From Desulfurococcus mucosus DSM 2162 (GTDB taxonomy: Archaea > Thermoproteota > Thermoprotei_A > Sulfolobales > Desulfurococcaceae): DNA of 64,000 nucleotides. Below the pieces are notes generated by a model that worked only from the letters and a program-made list of their open reading frames with translations, ran no database searches and had not been told where the DNA came from. Made by a program: the position numbers and the translations under genes. Numbering within the stretch: position 1 is the first letter of the stretch; each line of letters opens with the position of its first letter. The DNA lies in assembly GCF_000186365.1 (NCBI RefSeq), contig NC_014961.1, positions 992,001 through 1,056,000 of the forward strand, written 5' to 3'. Below are positions 8,324 to 42,649 of this stretch, one piece after another.

Positions 8324-11300
8324 ACCTCAATGTAAAGAGGATTGAAAGAGTCTACCGAGGAACAATATGACACGGTTTATCGCATTAAACCTCAATGTAA
8401 AGAGGATTGAAAGTAAGAATAACTACTACGTGTCCCGTCGGGCATACGAGTAACCTCAATGTAAAGAGGATTGAAAGGAAGGCTATTAGCGATATGAACA
8501 CGGCTAGATGTATTAACCTCAATGTAAAGAGGATTGAAAGTAGTAACCACCGGGTGTATTGCTAACCAGCGAATTAAAGTACCTCAATGTAAAGAGGATT
8601 GAAAGATGGTGTACACGGTTTTATAGTCTAGTGCACTGAGGTCGACCTCAATGTAAAGAGGATTGAAAGACTCAGTGTTGCTCGGTGGCTTCTACTATAA
8701 TGGGAAACCTCAATGTAAAGAGGATTGAAAGATTATGCAAAAGAAACCCCCTAGGCTTCTACCCTTCTACACCTCAATGTAAAGAGGATTGAAAGCTAGC
8801 ACCTGGCGAGACTAAGACTATAACGCTACCATTCACCTCAATGTAAAGAGGATTGAAAGCACGGTGAAGAAGAAGCCGCCGGGCAACGTCATCTGCTTAA
8901 ACCTCAATGTAAAGAGGATTGAAAGATAGGCTCCTCCTGAGGCTCCTTCATGATGCGTAGGGGAGACCTCAATGTAAAGAGGATTGAAAGACTATTCTCG
9001 ACAGGTCAAGGGTAAACTCCTTTCCACTCATACCTCAATGTAAAGAGGATTGAAAGTCTCCGCCACCGCGCTGAAAGCACCGTCAAAGGCTACAAGACCT
9101 CAATGTAAAGAGGATTGAAAGATGACGCCAAGTTAGTTAAATCAGCAGTTGTAATCTCGACCTCAATGTAAAGAGGATTGAAAGTAATACCCGAGGAGGC
9201 AAGGGAATACAGGGATATGTGTAACCTCAATGTAAAGAGGATTGAAAGGCCATTAACCTCTACTGCTGTCAATACCACTTCCTCATAAACCTCAATGTAA
9301 AGAGGATTGAAAGATTGTTGAATGGGTCATATACACTTTGCCGTCTAGTAACACACCTCAATGTAAAGAGGATTGAAAGATGACCCAATCACACTCAACA
9401 TCATTGAGGCACTCTTCCTACCTCAATGTAAAGAGGATTGAAAGATACTCCTCGTGCTCCTTCTCGTATTTCTTGTGCTCCTACCTCAATGTAAAGAGGA
9501 TTGAAAGCTTATTGTCCTTCAGCCACCTATACACTATTTCAACGCCACCTCAATGTAAAGAGGATTGAAAGTTTGGCTGGCGGTTCTGATACTCAGTCCA
9601 TGATAAATCCACCTCAATGTAAAGAGGATTGAAAGACATCACCACTAGTGGGGTATGTTGTGCTTCCCATTTTACCTCAATGTAAAGAGGATTGAAAGAC
9701 TCCCTGAGGGAGTCCCAGTTTATCCCCGGGGTTTCAACCTCAATGTAAAGAGGATTGAAAGAGCGAATACCCGGTGATCACGCCGGCGAACATGCTTGCA
9801 ACCTCAATGTAAAGAGGATTGAAAGTAGAGGTGGTTGGGTATGAGCTACATGGTTGAAGTATGGACCTCAATGTAAAGAGGATTGAAAGCTGGGATTGAT
9901 GTTGAAGTTGAGGCTTGCGAGGAGGCTGGACCTCAATGTAAAGAGGATTGAAAGTCAGAGCCCTCGGGGGCAAAGCCCTCGGGGGCTCGACCTACCTCAA
10001 TGTAAAGAGGATTGAAAGCTCCATTCCCTTATACACTCCCACTCGATGTCATCATAGACCTCAATGTAAAGAGGATTGAAAGATTAGATCATATAATATT
10101 AGGTAAACCTAGCGTTTTAAACCTCAATGTAAAGAGGATTGAAAGTCATCACCTTGGTGAGTAATCTGAGTAACATCCCCGATGTACCTCAATGTAAAGA
10201 GGATTGAAAGCCTCACTCCCCTTCACCTCCCAGCGCGAGATACGCTAGACCTCAATGTAAAGAGGATTGAAAGACTCATCTTCCGTGGGAGGCGAGCCCC
10301 TAATGCCATAGGACCTCAATGTAAAGAGGATTGAAAGCGCATGCCGTTAATGTAGTCATCCTCAAGGGCCCGGACCTCAATGTAAAGAGGATTGAAAGAG
10401 CAAGTAAATAACGACGCTGCGGTGATAACCAATGCCAACACCTCAATGTAAAGAGGATTGAAAGGGGTCGGCCAGTATAATGTACTCCACGTCCCGCGGC
10501 ATAGACCTCAATGTAAAGAGGATTGAAAGGGGAGCTCCGTGCGGAGCGAGTACTTCACAGCGTACTCCACCTCAATGTAAAGAGGATTGAAAGTTAACGT
10601 CAAGTGCATATACATAATTATCGTCATTTTCAACCTCAATGTAAAGAGGATTGAAAGGTAAACACCACTTTCCTGGATCTGCTGAAGAACGGCACACCTC
10701 AATGTAAAGAGGATTGAAAGCATTTACGCTTACAATGCTATCCCTGAAGGTTACATTAAACCTCAATGTAAAGAGGATTGAAAGTATTCGCTATGGCTGG
10801 AGGCATAGGTCTAGGTCTATTCCACCTCAATGTAAAGAGGATTGAAAGGATTAGTGTAGTTGCCCATGAGGTCAGCACCGGGGATTGCACCTCAATGTAA
10901 AGAGGATTGAAAGTATAATCCGCCAACCGATATGGAACGGGCTCCAGATACAACCTCAATGTAAAGAGGATTGAAAGACCTGAGATGTTAACGGGACGAG
11001 GCTTATAACCACGGCTAAACCTCAATGTAAAGAGGATTGAAAGTTGCACCTCTGTAGGGTTTCCCGTGCCTCGGCGAGGATTGACCTCAATGTAAAGAGG
11101 ATTGAAAGTAGAGAGGTTTATGGTCTCAATTAGTCAAAAAGTCGAGAACCTCAATGTAAAGAGGATTGAAAGGCATATATCTCAGAGAAGAAGCCCAAGT
11201 CCGATACACTTGACCTCAATGTAAAGAGGATTGAAAGCCCTTCTTCTCCACTAGTATTAGGTAGCCGTGCTTGTAACCTCAATGTAAAGAGGATTGAAAG
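8324..11300 (+). CRISPR. CRISPR array 1: 47 repeats, 46 spacers
   Basis: A 25-nt repeat beginning ACCTCAATGTAAAG and ending GGATTGAAAG recurs 47 times, starting at 8324 and ending at 11276-11300. Spacers are 36-41 nt. All repeats read begin with A and no internal variant was seen. With the leader on the left, the transcript reads on the + strand and would leave the typical ATTGAAAG 8-nt handle of type I crRNAs. The final repeat is intact rather than degenerate and is followed by only 22 bp before tRNA-Arg. No cas genes are in the window. Minus-strand ORFs across the array, rich in SILFTLR and FNPLYIEV, are repeat translations. Confidence 0.99.
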
Positions 11301-11322
11301 CTTGTAGGAATGTTGCTTGATG

Positions 11323-11397
11323 CGGGCCCGCCGGGATTTGAACCCGGGGCATCCGGCTCCGAAGGCCGGCGCCCTTTCCTGGCTGGGCGACGGGCCC
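11323..11397 (-). tRNA. tRNA-Arg (TCG)
   Basis: 75 nt. The acceptor stem is GGGCCCG/CGGGCCC with discriminator G, the anticodon arm is CCGGC-CTTCGGA-GCCGG and the T-loop is TTCAAAT. There is no intron. Its 3' end faces the last CRISPR repeat at a distance of 22 bp. Confidence 0.95.
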
Positions 11398-11412
11398 TGT
11401 TTCATGGTCTTG

Positions 11413-12087
11413 TTATTTCTTCTTGGATGCTATATATCCTTGTCTAGCTGTGTTCTTTGAGTATTTGTCTGCTAGGTGTAGTGGTAGTGGTAGTTTGAGC
11501 CCTGGTTTCATGAGGTGTTTGACTACTGTGACGGCGTCTTCGAGCCTGATTAGGTAGCCTATGCTGACGTATAGCTTGACTCCTTTCACTGGTTCCAGTA
11601 TTTCGCCGGCTGTTACTCCGTGTGCTGTGATGAGTCTCCTGCCGTTCACGGTTTTCTCCTCGCCGTAGAGGGGGTTCTTGGCGACGCCTATGGTGGGTTT
11701 CCCGAGGACTAGCCCTATGTGGGTTGCTATGCCGAGTGCCCTGGGGTGGGTTAACCCGTGTCCGTCGACGAGTATTATGTCGGGGTTTTCCGGCAGCTTC
11801 CTCAGGGCTTTAATATATACTGGTGCCTCCCTGAACGCGAGGAGCCCGGGTACGTAGGGGATCGGCGGCTCACGTACATGGCACGTGTACGCTAACTGCG
11901 TGCTGGAGGCGTAGTCCACGAGGACGGCGCACCCTGCTTGAACCCCGCCCCCGTATGCCGCGTCAACCCCTGCGACCAGCCTAACCCTGGATGGATCGAG
12001 CCCTGGGAAGGATGCAGCCTCCTCGAGCACCCTCCTGGATAATGCTTCCTGAAGCCTTACAGCCCGCCTGTAGTCGAAGAGGCTCAT
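11413..12087 (-). CDS. nfi: endonuclease V
   Basis: Predicted to nick DNA (or RNA) next to deaminated adenine (inosine), an important repair task at high temperature. The 224-residue length is normal. Family blocks are GVDAAYGG (first acidic residue, about residue 41), PYVPGLLAFREAP (catalytic glutamate), LVDGHGLTHPRALGIATHIG (catalytic aspartate and histidine) and KPTIGVAKNPL. ATG at 12087 is the start. It ends 15 bp from the tRNA-Arg 5' end. Its location beside the CRISPR array gives no evidence of a defence role. Confidence 0.93.
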   Translation of the reverse strand: MSLFDYRRAVRLQEALSRRVLEEAASFPGLDPSRVRLVAGVDAAYGGGVQAGCAVLVDYASSTQLAYTCHVREPPIPYVPGLLAFREAPVYIKALRKLPENPDIILVDGHGLTHPRALGIATHIGLVLGKPTIGVAKNPLYGEEKTVNGRRLITAHGVTAGEILEPVKGVKLYVSIGYLIRLEDAVTVVKHLMKPGLKLPLPLHLADKYSKNTARQGYIASKKK

Positions 12088-12162
12088 TAATACACGCCTT
12101 AATTAGCTGTCCACGCAATAATATACCTAGCCGCCAACACCGTAATAAGCATGGTGGTTCAC

Positions 12163-12717
12163 ATGGCTTTCAAGCAGGGGGAACTAGCCAGAGTCCTCGA
12201 AACACTGCTAGACGAGGGCGTCAAGTTCACAGTTATAGGGGACACAGTGGTGCAGTTAGCCCTTGGCAGGGAGACACTGGAGGGCGACCTAGACTTATTC
12301 ACATACGAGCCAAGCCCCCTCCTCGAAGCAGGCTTCTACCGCGAGCTAGCTGCTAGACATGGATGGGAGGCATCCACAACGGAGCTCGGCACGGTTAAAC
12401 TAATAGTGCCCTTAAGCGAGGACTACCTCAACGTGGAGCTCTACGAGAACTACATGGACATAGAGATCCCCGAGGAGATACTTGGAAAAGCGGAGCCCGT
12501 GAGAGTCAACAGTGTTGAAGCCCCAATGATACCCGTGGAAGCATACCTTGTCCTCAAAGCCAGGCAGGGAGTCGGCTTAGACAAGCTGGCCGAGTACGTT
12601 AAACAGTTGAGGAAAACAATCGATGTAAGGCTCGTAGACGAGCTCGCCGCACAATACCCTGAGGACGAGTATGAAACCATAGTGAGCAGGTTGAGGAGCA
12701 TAGGGCTCGACATCTAG
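12163..12717 (+). CDS. nucleotidyltransferase-fold protein (MNT/AbiEii-like)
   Basis: About 184 residues. The N-terminus has the pattern of a minimal nucleotidyltransferase: VIGDTVVQLALGR followed by LEGDLDLFTYEP, where the DLD acidic pair corresponds to the hGS...DxD active-site region. The glycine-serine of the canonical motif is GD here, so catalysis is uncertain. Similar proteins act as antitoxin/toxin NTases or as uncharacterised archaeal NTases; no toxin partner is adjacent. ATG at 12151 is in frame, but GGTGGT at 12153-12158 favours ATG at 12163. It precedes the L40e gene, which has its own promoter. Confidence 0.6.
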   Translation: MAFKQGELARVLETLLDEGVKFTVIGDTVVQLALGRETLEGDLDLFTYEPSPLLEAGFYRELAARHGWEASTTELGTVKLIVPLSEDYLNVELYENYMDIEIPEEILGKAEPVRVNSVEAPMIPVEAYLVLKARQGVGLDKLAEYVKQLRKTIDVRLVDELAAQYPEDEYETIVSRLRSIGLDI

Positions 12718-34940: not shown

Positions 34941-35435
34941 ATGAGGGGGTCAACAGTGTTGGACTTCCACATAGTAGTCGTCAGCGATAGGATCGCGGGT
35001 GGAGAATCCATTGATGTAAGCGGTGAGAAAGCCGTGGAATACCTTGCCAGCAGGGGATTCAAGGTTTCAGGGAAAACGGTGGTCGGCAACAGTTACAGGG
35101 ACATAGTCAGGGTGCTACGTGAATCAAAGAGCAGGGTCATTCTCTTCATCGGTGGCACGGGACCCAGCCCCAGGGATATAACAGTAGACGTCCTCGAGTC
35201 GCTCGCGTGGAGAGAGCTCCCAGGCTTCGGGGAAGCCTTCAGAAGGCTCTCCAGCAGCACCATAGGTCATAGGGCAATTCTCTCACGTGCAGGACTCTAC
35301 ATCCTGCCTGATGGGAGGATAACCGTGGCGCTCCCGGGTTCGACTCAGGCCCTTGAAGTAGGCTTAAGTATACTGGTCGACATAGTGGGGCACCTGGCTG
35401 AGGAAGTAGACAGGTTCGAGGGCCCCCACAGGTGA
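34941..35435 (+). CDS. moaB: molybdopterin adenylyltransferase-like protein (MoaB/MogA)
   Basis: About 164 residues. The VVVSDRIAGGE start, VILFIGGTGPSPRDITVDVLE (GGTGxxxRD substrate-binding motif) and the late ALPGSTQALEVGL match the MoaB/MogA fold. It activates molybdopterin by adenylation during molybdenum/tungsten cofactor synthesis, relevant for tungsten enzymes of hyperthermophiles. ATG 34941 follows a TTG at 34938 that could also initiate. The 3' end abuts the HAD gene, which begins within a few bases, suggesting an operon. Confidence 0.9.
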   Translation: MRGSTVLDFHIVVVSDRIAGGESIDVSGEKAVEYLASRGFKVSGKTVVGNSYRDIVRVLRESKSRVILFIGGTGPSPRDITVDVLESLAWRELPGFGEAFRRLSSSTIGHRAILSRAGLYILPDGRITVALPGSTQALEVGLSILVDIVGHLAEEVDRFEGPHR

Positions 35436-35443
35436 CTCACAGT

Positions 35444-36169
35444 ATGGCCGGGTGCATGGCGGTAAGCTTCGATGTATGGGGCACGCTCGTAGATCTCGAT
35501 AAGACTCTTGACCACCTCTCAGAGGTGGCTTCAAGGAGGCTTGGGCTCACCGGGGAGGAGGCACGTAGAGCTGTATACGGGTCTCATGACGATGCACGGA
35601 GGCTTAGGAGGCTCACGCCAAACCTGCATCCAGCCGAATTAATTTCACGTGCAAAGGAGATGCTTGCAGCACGCTTATCAACTGAGACACGTGTAGTCGA
35701 CTCAATACTGTTCGAGGCCTTTACAACGGTTAAACCCGAGGCAATACTATACCCTGACGTGGAGCCCGCACTAAGCGAGCTCGAGGAAGCCGGCTGCTAC
35801 ATGGGTGTAATAGGGAACGTGCTCTTCTGGCCCAGCAGCTACACTGTCACAGTACTAGAGAGGATCGGCCTCTCCAGGTATTTTAAGACACTGGTTTTCT
35901 CGGATACAGTGGGCTACAGTAAGCCCGACAGAGGTATATTCCTAGAGTTCGCGGAGGCCTCAGGATTCGAGCCAGGCAGAATAATACACGTAGGGGACAA
36001 CACACTAGAGGATGTTGGAGGAGCCCTTTCCTCAGGGTTCATCGGCGTATTGATAAACAGGAGAACCCGTAGAAACATGTATATCGAGGAACTGAAGGCA
36101 GCAGTAATCAACGACATGAGAGAACTACCAAAACTCTACCACGAGATATCACGCACAACATGCACATGA
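35444..36169 (+). CDS. HAD-superfamily hydrolase
   Basis: About 241 residues. Motif I is SFDVWGTLVDLD (nucleophile Asp, with the DVWGT variant common in archaeal HADs), motif II the GVIGN strand, motif III YSKPDRGIF (lysine) and motif IV HVGDNTLEDVGGA. A helical cap of the C1 type lies between motifs I and II. It is a phosphatase or haloacid dehalogenase-like enzyme acting on an unknown small substrate. GTG 35432 overlaps the moaB stop, but AGGTGA at 35430-35435 sits 8 nt before ATG 35444. Confidence 0.88.
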   Translation: MAGCMAVSFDVWGTLVDLDKTLDHLSEVASRRLGLTGEEARRAVYGSHDDARRLRRLTPNLHPAELISRAKEMLAARLSTETRVVDSILFEAFTTVKPEAILYPDVEPALSELEEAGCYMGVIGNVLFWPSSYTVTVLERIGLSRYFKTLVFSDTVGYSKPDRGIFLEFAEASGFEPGRIIHVGDNTLEDVGGALSSGFIGVLINRRTRRNMYIEELKAAVINDMRELPKLYHEISRTTCT

Positions 36170-36284
36170 AACACAACGATACAGCCAATCCCGACACCAC
36201 ACCCTAAATCAACCAGTCCTCAAGCCTCCAAAGCAGTACAACACGCAAACCCCGTACCCCCGTCGCGGGAAACCCTGAACACCC

Positions 36285-36457
36285 CTCGTTGTTTTTGGTC
36301 GAAGTGATCGCTTTATACAAACAGGTTGATCACCCGATTCTGGATCCCTCCCGTTGATACTGGTCGAAGTTGCTCCGCATACTCTTTCCAGTTAAAACCG
36401 TAAGATATTTAAGGCTGCGACCCAGGAAACATAACATGTAGAAGAACTTCGACAAAT
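36285..36457 (+). promoter_or_regulatory. CRISPR leader 2
   Basis: About 173 bp nearly identical to leader 1, including TATA-like GATATTTAAGG. It has direct GTCGAAG copies at 36298-36304 and 36363-36369 and inverted CTTCGAC at 36447-36453. It differs from leader 1 by a few substitutions and single-base indels; one indel is immediately before the first repeat (leader 1 has an extra A). Confidence 0.9.
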
Positions 36458-39400
36458 GCCTCAATGTAAAGAGGATTGAAAGATCCGGGCCGAAGTAATC
36501 GACATATTGGCCCGTAAAATGGGGCCTCAATGTAAAGAGGATTGAAAGGTTCACATTTGCGAACACTATTCATACCCATAGACAATGTGCCTCAATGTAA
36601 AGAGGATTGAAAGACCTCTATCCTTATCCACTTTTCATAAATGGGCCGGTTTCGCCTCAATGTAAAGAGGATTGAAAGTCGCACTGATTATCGAGGAGGG
36701 CTTACTCCTATGGTTCAAGCCTCAATGTAAAGAGGATTGAAAGATATCCCCGGCGGTCGCCCCACGGTATATGAAGCCCTCGGGCCTCAATGTAAAGAGG
36801 ATTGAAAGTCCCAGCTGGAGTAGTCATCCAGATGCGGTTTAACCATGCCTCAATGTAAAGAGGATTGAAAGTTATAGCTAACGCAATACGCTCGCGTCTT
36901 TCTTCCACTAGGCCTCAATGTAAAGAGGATTGAAAGCGAATTAAGACGCCTAACCCTCCCCAGAGCCTGAGGGCCTCAATGTAAAGAGGATTGAAAGCCA
37001 ACGAGCTAGGCTGGTACGGCATCCATTACAGGGAGAGCCTCAATGTAAAGAGGATTGAAAGCTCTAAGTATGACCTCCTCGGTAGCCCTCTCAATACATG
37101 GGCCTCAATGTAAAGAGGATTGAAAGGTGTAATGCACCATTAAAGCCTGCGTGGTCTTTATGATGCCTCAATGTAAAGAGGATTGAAAGACCCAATTGAG
37201 GTTTTCACCGCTCACATATCCCTGAAGCCTCAATGTAAAGAGGATTGAAAGCTCGGGTTAGTGTAATTGATGCTGGTTACCTGCTGCAGCGGCCTCAATG
37301 TAAAGAGGATTGAAAGAGAGGATCCCGAGCTACCTGAAGGCGAGAAGATAATCCTAGGCCTCAATGTAAAGAGGATTGAAAGTTTCTTCAGCTCAAAGCC
37401 TATATCGTGGTCTAGCACATAGCCTCAATGTAAAGAGGATTGAAAGATACTATCGCATTACTCCAGAAGCTATTTGACACGACTGGGCCTCAATGTAAAG
37501 AGGATTGAAAGCTATTGCTACTCCACACGCCTCCCCGCTAGTGAACCACGGCCTCAATGTAAAGAGGATTGAAAGTAAATTGTTTAAAATGATTATCACT
37601 CAACCTCATGGACGCCTCAATGTAAAGAGGATTGAAAGGTGGGTACGTATATGGTGCTACCATTAGTAAGGTATATGCCTCAATGTAAAGAGGATTGAAA
37701 GTTGCACAGGCGTTTTCCTGCTGCTGTTCTAGTTATGGCGCCTCAATGTAAAGAGGATTGAAAGATTTTCTGCCTTATCTAGGCTGGCCCGGCTCATTAA
37801 ACCAGCCTCAATGTAAAGAGGATTGAAAGCTGAGGAGATCCCCGCAGAGTCGTGAGTCAAGGGCTTTTATGCCTCAATGTAAAGAGGATTGAAAGTTCAG
37901 CTGCTGATCAATTCTGCCCGCCCACTTCAATATTGGGCCTCAATGTAAAGAGGATTGAAAGATATTGGCGCCAGACTTATTATATTGAACCTCGTTTAAA
38001 GCCTCAATGTAAAGAGGATTGAAAGGCTCTAACAAGTTGAGCCGGCTGATAGCCTTGCGGTAGCTGCCTCAATGTAAAGAGGATTGAAAGATGGATGACT
38101 GCTACTGGCAGTACGGCGACTATAGTAGGGCCTCAATGTAAAGAGGATTGAAAGTATAATTATATCGGGAGTGGTTTCGGGTATATATTTTAAGCCTCAA
38201 TGTAAAGAGGATTGAAAGCTAGATCCCTGATCCTTATAGGATCCTAGACTCGTTAAGGCCTCAATGTAAAGAGGATTGAAAGTAGCTATGTCTTGCAGGG
38301 CTTTCTCCGCCTTGCTTAAGCCTATGCCTCAATGTAAAGAGGATTGAAAGAAAATGTCGGGCGGGGTATTTAAGCGTTGTGTTTTGTAGCCTCAATGTAA
38401 AGAGGATTGAAAGTTACGATCACCTTGCTTTTCTACTAGTATGAGGTACCCGGCCTCAATGTAAAGAGGATTGAAAGTGCTACCCTTTATCAGCAACGCT
38501 AGCTCACGGGCCCACAGCCTCAATGTAAAGAGGATTGAAAGACGAGCTGGAAGTATACCGTGGTATACCAGGCTCCCGTGAGCCTCAATGTAAAGAGGAT
38601 TGAAAGTGGAGACCGTTACCAAGATCAATAGTAGAACTGAGATAGGCCTCAATGTAAAGAGGATTGAAAGGTAACTTATTTTCATTTTCCAGAAGTGGTA
38701 TTCTACCATGCCTCAATGTAAAGAGGATTGAAAGTATGGGGTTACAAAAGCTATATGGGATTAAACTGCTGGAGCCTCAATGTAAAGAGGATTGAAAGTG
38801 TAGTCAACCCTTGCAACAGGCACAGCCGTGTACACGGTGCCTCAATGTAAAGAGGATTGAAAGCTACCATAGGGGTAGCTTATAAACAGCTGTGTAGTGT
38901 ACGCCTCAATGTAAAGAGGATTGAAAGCCAGCTTTTACATATATTTTAAGGTAATGGTATCCGTCGCCTCAATGTAAAGAGGATTGAAAGAAAACATACA
39001 TATATAGTCAGCAGGCGATATATATAGCCTCAATGTAAAGAGGATTGAAAGATACTCTCCCTCACAACCGGGACGGGATCCACCATGCAGCCTCAATGTA
39101 AAGAGGATTGAAAGACGTAGGAAGGTATTCCAGGATTCCTTTCCCTTATATCTTTGCCTCAATGTAAAGAGGATTGAAAGTTAAATTTAAAGGCCTCCAA
39201 CACTACCGCGTCGCCCGCCAGCCTCAATGTAAAGAGGATTGAAAGGTCAGCAACGAGGAGCTTCTGCAGCTACTACGCAACTACGAGGCCTCAATGTAAA
39301 GAGGATTGAAAGTTACTGCCGCCACCTTCTTGCCGTCATACTGCAGTGTGAGCCTCAATGTAAAGAGGATTGAAAGATAAGCCTAGTGAGAGAAGCTTCT

Positions 39401-40539
39401 TCTCACGCTCATGCCTCAATGTAAAGAGGATTGAAAGCCGTCCTGCTTACACCCGGCTTTGCAGGCCTCCCATATTGCCTCAATGTAAAGAGGATTGAAA
39501 GCTCACGAATGCCACCGGGTTCAACCCGGCCACAGTGCTGGGCCTCAATGTAAAGAGGATTGAAAGCCACAGTTATAAAGTGGGGCCTGGTGGCCCCGTT
39601 CGGCTAGCCTCAATGTAAAGAGGATTGAAAGATATATCCACTCCACTGATTTCACCAAGGGCTCAGGGCTCCGCCTCAATGTAAAGAGGATTGAAAGAGA
39701 ACACGGGAAGCGATGGATGGGTTAGGGTAAGGGTTGCCTCAATGTAAAGAGGATTGAAAGACGGGTTCCTCCCCTGGCGGCGCCAGCTTAATCCACTCAG
39801 GCCTCAATGTAAAGAGGATTGAAAGTGTAAAAGTGCTAAAAGCTAAGTACAACAACTGTAAGGTAAGCCTCAATGTAAAGAGGATTGAAAGATAAAATAA
39901 GGCGCGCTAGGGGGCTGGCCGGGGGGCGGAGGCCTCAATGTAAAGAGGATTGAAAGATTGGGACAGATTTCAAGCCCTATGGTGCCCTCCAAATGCCTCA
40001 ATGTAAAGAGGATTGAAAGCTTCACCGGTGGTGAGGTCAACTATATATGGGCTCGGGCCTCAATGTAAAGAGGATTGAAAGATTAGGTAGGATCCACGGC
40101 ATCCTACCTAGTAGGGACCCCGGCCTCAATGTAAAGAGGATTGAAAGCTGTAACCGTGGTTGAAACATTACCGGCAAGGAGGGTAGGCCTCAATGTAAAG
40201 AGGATTGAAAGGTTTCATATGTCTCCCCTCAATTCTCTAATATGCATTTAGAGGCCTCAATGTAAAGAGGATTGAAAGAGTCTTTTACCGGGTTCAACTT
40301 GTTTCATTAATTCACGCAGCCTCAATGTAAAGAGGATTGAAAGACGGCAGCCTCCCGTAGAAAAAGCTGCAGTCTCCCCGTGGGCCTCAATGTAAAGAGG
40401 ATTGAAAGTAAAGTAATCCAATACCTCCCGGGGATCTCCCTCTGTGGTGGCCTCAATGTAAAGAGGATTGAAAGATTGTCATAGGTAATAGAACTTGAGT
40501 GATTATCGGGATGCGCCTCAATGTAAAGGGGATTGAAAG
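36458..40539 (+). CRISPR. CRISPR array 2: 64 repeats, 63 spacers
   Basis: A 25-nt repeat beginning GCCTCAATGTAAAG and ending GGATTGAAAG recurs 64 times from 36458 to 40539; spacers are 36-43 nt. Every copy begins with G, where array 1 always has A. The last copy (40515-40539) has one A-to-G change (AAAGGGG), the normal sign of a leader-distal terminal repeat. Orientation is the same as array 1. Some spacers are strongly self-complementary (for example 40082-40122). No cas gene is adjacent. Confidence 0.99.
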
Positions 40540-40656
40540 GGTTTCGGAACAGCTGCCTCTAAACAAGATGTTGGATGAGTTGGAAATACGTGAATACGCT
40601 GTGGTAAAGGCATAAATACCTGGTTTGTCTTTTTATGGGTGGGGCATGTGAATATT

Positions 40657-42210
40657 ATGAGGCTGGTGGCTCCTCTATTAGTAGTAGCCATCCTGGTATC
40701 GGGGCTGGTGGTCCTAGATTATACTGTACCCGCGGATATTAAGAGGGATGAGCATAGGGGTTTAACTACCAGGTATTATAGGGATTATTTTGAGCCAGCT
40801 ATAAGAATACGTGTACCGGGCACGTCGTCAAGGGCTATCACCATATCCAGGGTTTACTTCTGGGCTCTTAACGGTAGCCTGATAGATCTCGGTAGGTATA
40901 GAAGTGTAGGCGGCGTCATAAAGATACCCAAGGGTAAGATTGTCGAGGTGTATGGGGAAGTAGCTGAATACGTGAAGAGAGAAGGGTTAGACCCTGATAG
41001 CGTCGGATTAGGATTAGTAATACTGAACTCTATACACATGGAAGACGGAGTATACACTAATATTATCATGCCACCACTGAGAATAGGGTTAGCCTCGAAA
41101 CCAGAAGTATCAATCGAAGTAACATCTAGTCAGAAATCAATTAAGATAAGAGGTATAGAAGACGTAAGGAAAGATGTTGCAAGTAGTCTTGGAGTTGAAC
41201 CTGAAAAGGTAGTAGTTGAATTAGCAAGTGAAACCGCTTTCACCCGGTTCATTAATTTGTTAAATACTGGGAGAGTTGAAGAGTACTGCTACTATACAGG
41301 AGGCCCTAATTATGGTAGGGTGATATGTTATGAATGGAGACTTGATAAAACATATGGAAGCTTCAGTAATGTGGACATACCATTAGCCATGGGTATTATT
41401 CGATGGCTAGATAGGGTTAGAGAACCCGAGTTCAATGTTGTTCTAATGGCATCAGAACAATTTGCTATATCAGTTGGTATAGCTCCAACATTTGGTATCG
41501 GGAGTAATTATGGTGGCGCATCATATGAGGTGCCGGGTTTATCATGGGCAGCTTATAGTCAGCGAAGTGCCAATCTCAATCTTGGAAAGAGATTTATATA
41601 CGGGGCTGATTATAATTCTCCAAGCATACTTTATGTTGGATTTAAAGGTAATGCTACAATCGGGTTATTTAAGGAGTACCTCTGCGTATACCCGGATCTA
41701 GGCACCCCTACATGTAGTTATCTAGGTGTAGATGCTAATGCAACTATAGCGAGGCCCTTCAAGCTCAACTTAGATAATAGTATAGGTGTGATCGGCGCAG
41801 CACCTTTACCTAATACTGAACACTACTTGGTTAAAACATATCAGATATTAAAGGACAACAATTGGTTTGGATCCTGGAAGTACATCACTGGACCCGTCGA
41901 TTTAAGAATTAACAGTACCATCATTTCCGCTGAACTGAATACTATTCCACTGCTTTCAGGCAGTATAAGCGTTGGGGCTGTATTGTTCGCTCTAGTAGGA
42001 GGACCTATACCGGCATGGGCTACCGCACTTCTATGTGTAAGTATAGGTATAACTGCGAGTAGGATGGATCAGCGATTCATGTTTATAGGTGTATCATTCG
42101 TTGTTAATAGTGGTAAGTTAGTTGCATATAGATACATTAATTCGCCATACTTCTACAAGTACCAGGATGGTAGTTACAAGATTGGAGGAGTATATGTTGA
42201 AACCTGGTAG
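40657..42210 (+). CDS. AT-rich gene for a secreted/membrane-anchored protein of unknown function
   Basis: About 517 residues from ATG 40657 (GTG 40639 and 40648 also in frame). An N-terminal signal-anchor (MRLVAPLLVVAILVSGLVV) is followed by a large beta-rich extracellular region with four cysteines (EEYCYYTGG, RVICYEW, EYLCVYP, PTCSYLG) and a hydrophobic region near residues 440-475 that could cross the membrane once or twice. GGTGGGG at 40639-40645 may be the ribosome-binding site; TATA-like ATAAATAC at 40612-40619. Codon use is visibly richer in A/T than in neighbours, suggesting transfer. It lies just after CRISPR array 2. No family recognised. Confidence 0.75.
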   Translation: MRLVAPLLVVAILVSGLVVLDYTVPADIKRDEHRGLTTRYYRDYFEPAIRIRVPGTSSRAITISRVYFWALNGSLIDLGRYRSVGGVIKIPKGKIVEVYGEVAEYVKREGLDPDSVGLGLVILNSIHMEDGVYTNIIMPPLRIGLASKPEVSIEVTSSQKSIKIRGIEDVRKDVASSLGVEPEKVVVELASETAFTRFINLLNTGRVEEYCYYTGGPNYGRVICYEWRLDKTYGSFSNVDIPLAMGIIRWLDRVREPEFNVVLMASEQFAISVGIAPTFGIGSNYGGASYEVPGLSWAAYSQRSANLNLGKRFIYGADYNSPSILYVGFKGNATIGLFKEYLCVYPDLGTPTCSYLGVDANATIARPFKLNLDNSIGVIGAAPLPNTEHYLVKTYQILKDNNWFGSWKYITGPVDLRINSTIISAELNTIPLLSGSISVGAVLFALVGGPIPAWATALLCVSIGITASRMDQRFMFIGVSFVVNSGKLVAYRYINSPYFYKYQDGSYKIGGVYVETW

Positions 42211-42527
42211 AAACAATCCCTTTTCCGCTTTGTCTTTCAATCCGCTTTCAAACGGATCCCTTATAGCTAAAAGATGCATCTACACATATCTCCACCAACC
42301 ACTCTCCAATACAAGCATCTACCCATACCTTAACTCTCAACCCACCGCTACCCCGGCTTCCCAACACATACATCTCATAATCCATAGCAGTGTAGGATCA
42401 CACTTAGTCATCGATCAGTTGAAGTGAAGAAGCCTGTTAAAAACAATATGAAAGCAGTGTTTTTCTATGCAGGATAACTATTAGGAGCCCTACACACGTG
42501 GATAAGCAATACCTAGATGTCTCCCCG
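42211..42527 (+). other. intergenic region, no convincing gene
   Basis: About 317 bp, AT-richer than the window. It contains a short hairpin ATCCG...CGGAT (42240-42257) that could end the upstream transcript. An overlapping ORF (42122-42427) has no plausible start signal or motif. Confidence 0.5.
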
Positions 42528-42552
42528 CCTCAATGCAGAGAGGATTGGGGGC
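42528..42552 (+). repeat. solitary degenerate CRISPR repeat
   Basis: 25 nt matching the array 2 repeat at 20 of 25 positions, in the same orientation: GCCTCAATGCAGAG then AGGATTGGGGG. All five differences are transitions (one T to C and four A to G). It lies 1,988 bp beyond the last array 2 repeat, just before tRNA-Gly. Confidence 0.75.
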
Positions 42553-42574
42553 TGTGAGTTGTGTTGAGGGGAGT

Positions 42575-42649
42575 GCGGCGGCCGGGATTTGAACCCGGGA
42601 TTTCCGGCGTGGCAGGCCGGCGTCCTAGTCCAGGCTAGACGACCGCCGC
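42575..42649 (-). tRNA. tRNA-Gly (GCC)
   Basis: 75 nt. The acceptor stem is GCGGCGG/CCGCCGC with discriminator A, the anticodon arm is CCGGC-CTGCCAC-GCCGG and the T-loop is TTCAAAT. There is no intron. Confidence 0.95.

Follow-up and report, generated by a model that had tools for sequence, protein, structure and literature searches.

A one-gene cassette between CRISPR repeats at the ends of two type I-A arrays of Desulfurococcus mucosus, and a putative chromosome inversion between them

In the genome of Desulfurococcus mucosus O7/1 (1,314,639 bases, one contig), a solitary, decayed CRISPR repeat lies about 2 kb past the end of a CRISPR array, with an AT-rich gene in between. How did a repeat come to stand behind a protein-coding gene, and what does it reveal about the end of the array? 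CRISPR arrays are usually seen purely as immune memory. In D. mucosus, repeats delimit a protein-coding cassette in two arrays, and the array ends appear to be the breakpoints of an inversion that swapped the sequences downstream. Immune arrays can in this way serve as sites of chromosome rearrangement. The sequence analysed, referred to as the window, comprises 64,000 nucleotides (992,001-1,056,000 of the chromosome). A first-pass annotation had proposed that its array 2 once extended to a tRNA-Gly and was interrupted by a foreign segment that stranded the last repeat.

The lone repeat and the end of array 2

The locus has the following features (window coordinates).

35432..36169, plus strand: gene for a HAD-like hydrolase, flanking array 2 on the left; in relatives it adjoins a MATE gene
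36270..36457, plus strand: array-2 leader of about 190 bp; its identity with the leaders of arrays 1 and 3 and with that of a mini-array is 88-94%
36458..40539, plus strand: CRISPR array 2, 64 repeats
40515-40539, plus strand: R*, the last repeat of array 2, bordering the cassette on its left; it has A>G at its position 15 and is identical in the second copy
40540..42526, plus strand: cassette body A, 1987 bp, with a second copy on the minus strand at 967485-969466 of the chromosome
40611..40619, plus strand: putative TATA-like element upstream of the gene, recognised by eye
40639..42210, plus strand: cassette gene for a 523-aa protein, GTG start
42527-42551, plus strand: decayed lone repeat that borders the cassette on its right, 20/25 positions conserved (24/25 in the second copy)
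42573-42649, minus strand: tRNA-Gly(GCC), right flank; in the congener G002, an sfsA-like gene and then a nuo-like cluster come next

The lone repeat, GCCTCAATGcAgAGAGGATTGgggG, shares 20 of 25 positions with the array-2 repeat in the same orientation. The five differences, one T>C and four A>G, are all transitions. This match and the A-to-G change in R* had been recognised in the first-pass annotation, and both were recovered in a sequence scan; the lone repeat had been placed at 42528-42552, one base to the right of its true position. A single 20/25 match chosen by eye may be a chance resemblance. In the 57 kb of the window that lie outside arrays, no other site has seven or fewer mismatches. 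Among 300 first-order Markov simulations, no site had five or fewer mismatches, and sites with six or fewer occurred at 0.0033 per scan. The chance expectation of the match is below 0.004 per 57 kb. The homologous site in the second copy of the block, described below, matches the repeat in 24 of 25 positions, which already refutes coincidence; its probability is next to nil. The lone repeat is a genuine array-terminal repeat, now decayed.

The segment between R* and the lone repeat is AT-rich, as first described, with 42% GC (GC3 36%) versus 53% for the window. The end of its gene had been predicted correctly at 42210. The former start, 40657, is an internal ATG, and the gene begins with the GTG at 40639.

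Array 2 has no adjacent cas genes. Array 3, with about 45 repeats on the minus strand, adjoins a type I-A cas operon with cas1, cas2, two cas4, Cas11a, Cas7a, Cas5a and Cas8a. Both arrays (64 and 45 repeats) have the characteristics of type I-A arrays: regular identical repeats, unique spacers of 36-43 nt, a shared leader of about 190 bp and, at array 3, the type I-A cas genes beside it. Recent copying of one whole array from the other is excluded, because their leaders are only about 90% identical and no spacer is shared.

Array 1, whose last repeat is located at 11276-11300, stops 21 bp short of the 3' end of the tRNA-Arg gene at 11322-11397 on the minus strand. The same 21-bp spacing separates the lone repeat from the tRNA-Gly. 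The genome also contains two mini-arrays of two repeats each, L011 (G000:C1:1239499-1239588) and L012 (1254027-1254116). L011 has the full leader common to arrays 1-3, and L012 has none.

A second cassette and a mosaic of divergence

A protein search of the genome found the cassette gene twice. The second gene is located at 967,804-969,366 on the minus strand, within a second copy of the whole block (copy B, 967,460-969,491 on the same strand), where the cas-linked array 3 ends. Copy B consists of R* with the same A>G change, the same 2-kb gene segment and then a lone repeat. The alignment of the two copies starts at R* and ends at the lone repeat, with no similarity outside the repeats, and the distance to the lone repeat is the same in both. 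A DNA search detected no third copy in the D. mucosus genome. The gene segment is a discrete unit with CRISPR-repeat borders. What needs to be explained is a block of R*, 1987 bp with one gene and a repeat, present at the tails of two arrays. The alternative offered in the first-pass annotation, an old unit that had duplicated and diverged, was likewise correct in part, as there are two copies of the whole block.

The copies differ in a patchy manner. Identical stretches, synonymous sites included, span 40515-41387 (except for one T in a T run), 41613-41879 and 42139-42449. The runs of complete identity are 758, 311 and 267 bp long. Two divergent islands lie in between.

41388..41612, plus strand: divergent island 1, dS 0.82 and dN 0.30 between the copies
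41880..42138, plus strand: divergent island 2, dS 0.59 and dN 0.21 between the copies

The final 102 bp (42450-42551), including the lone repeat, have nine differences, all transitions; at eight of these nine positions, copy A has G or C and copy B has A or T. A G at position 22 is common to both lone repeats, to which copy A adds four transitions. Positive selection on the islands was considered and rejected, as a dN/dS of about 0.36 indicates purifying selection on average.

A single recent duplication is rejected, because complete identity and high synonymous divergence coexist in the same pair of sequences. The mosaic could originate from a recent duplicate that imported the two islands from elsewhere. 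The preferred reading is an old duplicate that gene conversion has overwritten piecemeal, since conversion in short, discontinuous patches is documented for Sulfolobus (S. acidocaldarius; Mao and Grogan 2012, reviewed in PMC4471258). The exchange tracts described there are likewise short, discontinuous and non-reciprocal and belong to a hyperthermophilic archaeon. They were measured in transformation and mating experiments, whereas in D. mucosus conversion would have acted between two chromosomal paralogues.

Gene neighbourhoods exchanged between the array ends

Gene order in relatives sheds light on the flanks of the two arrays. In two genomes of the genus (G001 and G002) and one of the family (G007), the order is OGT, MoaB, HAD and MATE, the last two being direct neighbours on the same strand. 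In D. mucosus, array 2, cassette A and the tRNA-Gly come after HAD. The D. mucosus MATE gene (965,656-967,338) lies beside cassette copy B and is preceded by array 3 and that cassette. In G002, the tRNA-Gly is followed by the sfsA-like gene and then by the nuo-like cluster. In D. mucosus, the nuo-like cluster is found at 984-988 kb, just past the cas genes adjoining array 3. Both ancestral junctions are thus present in relatives and reciprocally exchanged in D. mucosus, the second with the sfsA-like gene in between. The HAD-MATE junction was seen in G001, G002 and G007, the tRNA-Gly-nuo-like junction in G002 alone; in G001, which supports only the first junction, another neighbour stands at the PPase gene.

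Reversing the segment between the cassettes restores HAD-MATE and the nuo-like cluster with the tRNA-Gly, with one array within each pair. Judged from gene order in the deposited sequence, the two array ends are the breakpoints of a putative chromosome inversion. Its length would be about 63 kb, measured from one R* repeat to the other. The inversion is inferred because the two reciprocal junctions have the polarity expected from a single inversion between the arrays. The copies and their arrays face in opposite directions, which makes such an event possible. Cassettes A (plus) and B (minus) provide inverted homologous sequences at both breakpoints, with identity runs of up to 758 bp. In each locus, the crossover would have fallen within the region from the leader to the lone repeat, in which the 758 bp of the cassette are the longest identical stretch.

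An assembler can flip a segment between inverted, near-identical blocks, and the exchanged junctions would then be an artefact while the cassettes themselves are real. Two inverted copies with complete identity over 758, 311 and 267 bp adjoining repeat arrays are a suitable substrate for such an error, and the genome was sequenced in 2011 with 454 and Illumina reads. The published project used paired ends of a 13-kb library, which exceeds the length of either array with its cassette, and finished the repeats. Both make a flip less likely, and an artefact is judged improbable.

In Thermotogales, inversions were reported to coincide with CRISPR loci, and what part the arrays played there was not settled (DeBoy et al. 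2006, as cited in PMC5052741). The likeness to D. mucosus is in the inversions with CRISPR loci at their ends. The difference is that the array tails of D. mucosus also carry a common 2-kb, repeat-bounded coding cassette, that is, long homology for an exchange. For earlier rearrangements at CRISPR loci, a role of the array was not established; D. mucosus offers two defined breakpoints and a shared 2-kb homology.

The inversion also changes the view of array 2. The array that formerly ended at the tRNA-Gly was probably the cas-linked array 3 and not, as initially proposed, array 2, because the inversion joined the tRNA-Gly end with the array-2 end.

Cassette gene, insertion and proposed history

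The 523-aa protein had no significant match in sequence searches of Pfam, PHROG, NCBIfam, PADLOC and PDB. A two-sequence profile found homologues in 14 other genomes of the 229 searched in the class, often several in each, and none in any other searched genome of the family of D. mucosus. In two closely inspected stretches, the homologues lie among ordinary chromosomal genes. None of 20 stretches with Desulfurococcales homologues had a CRISPR array beside the gene; one of these loci had two short direct-repeat signals, which are not arrays of the D. mucosus kind. Loci L052-L071 represent a multi-copy family of about 520 aa with a hydrophobic N-terminus and without Pfam match, distributed over several Desulfurococcales families and arranged in tandem pairs in some genomes. 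A viral origin of the gene was considered and dismissed: phage records contained no match, and the protein and three family alignments found no relative in IMG/VR. The exact CRISPR repeat was also absent from IMG/VR.

A first structure model, based on two sequences, was discarded (pLDDT 31). A six-sequence model (mean pLDDT 62) predicted a hydrophobic helix at the N-terminus and, after it, a beta-rich body. Foldseek searches with this model gave no convincing match to the whole protein, with TM-scores near 0.1. Residues 41-151 alone resembled Ig- or macroglobulin-like domains in the model (Z about 6), which may reflect a common arrangement. The protein is most likely a membrane-anchored surface protein.

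The insertion of a mobile element into the array tail, as put forward in the first-pass annotation, would have stranded the last repeat, and copy B would be the product of a second jump. The insert is indeed discrete, AT-rich and repeat-bounded, its gene is absent from the rest of the family, and it is positioned inside an array. The block encodes no transposase or integrase; beside the 523-aa gene it has only short overlapping ORFs. A target-site duplication had been suggested as a check. The longest direct match between the cassette ends is 9 bp, within the range of shuffled sequences, and inverted matches of at least 8 bp between the ends are absent, so that neither target-site duplication nor terminal inverted repeats rise above chance. 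Close relatives had been proposed as a second check. G001 and G002 have no array of this kind at either place, nor any copy of the CRISPR repeat within three mismatches, so neither a continuous array nor an empty site was seen. A much closer relative is D. mobilis DSM 2161, with an ANI of 99.88% to D. mucosus (PMC4711178). Both copies have the repeats themselves as borders and share the distance to the lone repeat, which also argues against transposon-type insertion. It is considered rather unlikely. The literature searched contained no direct precedent for gene insertion inside CRISPR arrays.

A regulatory function of the decayed repeat would resemble CreTA modules, which pair degenerate ectopic CRISPR-like repeats with a gene (PMC8501985, PMC9458426); a guide RNA from the degenerate repeat would silence the neighbouring gene. 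The similarity lies in degenerate CRISPR-like repeats beside a gene and outside a canonical array. In addition, the GGTTT after R* recurs behind CCT at the promoter of the gene, a 5-nt seed with a CCN motif. This is a weak match, of a length present in about 1.3% of random sequences. The sequence past the lone repeat differs between the copies and thus offers no conserved guide. CreTA modules contain a tiny RNA toxin, whereas the gene of D. mucosus, the only substantial ORF of the block, encodes a long, secreted-type protein. A CreTA-like module is very unlikely.

Recombination at the repeats is the preferred origin of the block. Faure et al. 2019 (as cited in PMC8616872) proposed that solitary repeat units in mobile elements recombine with host arrays and thereby become integrated. 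The product expected from this is foreign DNA with one CRISPR repeat on each side; exactly one repeat per side fits the borders of the cassette. Unlike the elements described there, the D. mucosus insert is a single gene, and searches found no virus or plasmid with its repeat or gene. A stronger version is that the cassette is a mobile unit with CRISPR repeats as attachment sites, in which its two flanking repeats would recombine and set free a circle of the gene and one repeat that can enter any array with this repeat. The array tail would then be an integron-like docking station for cargo genes. There is a slim chance that this holds.

A history of entry, copying, conversion and then inversion is considered probable for this one-gene cassette, in the order R*, gene and repeat, at the trailer end of two type I-A arrays. 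Most likely, recombination took place between an array repeat and the single repeat of a DNA molecule that also carried the gene. The block may then have been copied to the second array's tail by recombination anchored in the repeats. The two copies would have aged into paralogues and later been partly re-homogenised by patchy gene conversion. A crossover between the inverted copies or arrays, presumably by homologous recombination, would have flipped the approximately 63 kb in between. It would have joined HAD, array 2 and cassette with the tRNA-Gly, and the cas genes, array 3 and cassette with MATE. The lone repeats would be the original last repeats of the two loci, of which the one at the tRNA-Gly decayed further.

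Two minor observations concern repeat and spacer sequences. An inverted fragment at 42234-42248 (minus strand), 24 bp past the stop codon of the cassette gene, agrees with the 3' half of the CRISPR repeat at 14 of 15 bases. Among 150 simulated sequences, none reached its score; the fragment overlaps a small hairpin and may be coincidental. In array 3 (L003, about 9468-12320), spacers 24 and 29 are 87.5% similar across 40 nt, and 22 nt are common to the neighbouring spacers 39 and 40. These near-duplicate and overlapping spacers suggest repeated sampling of the same or related targets.
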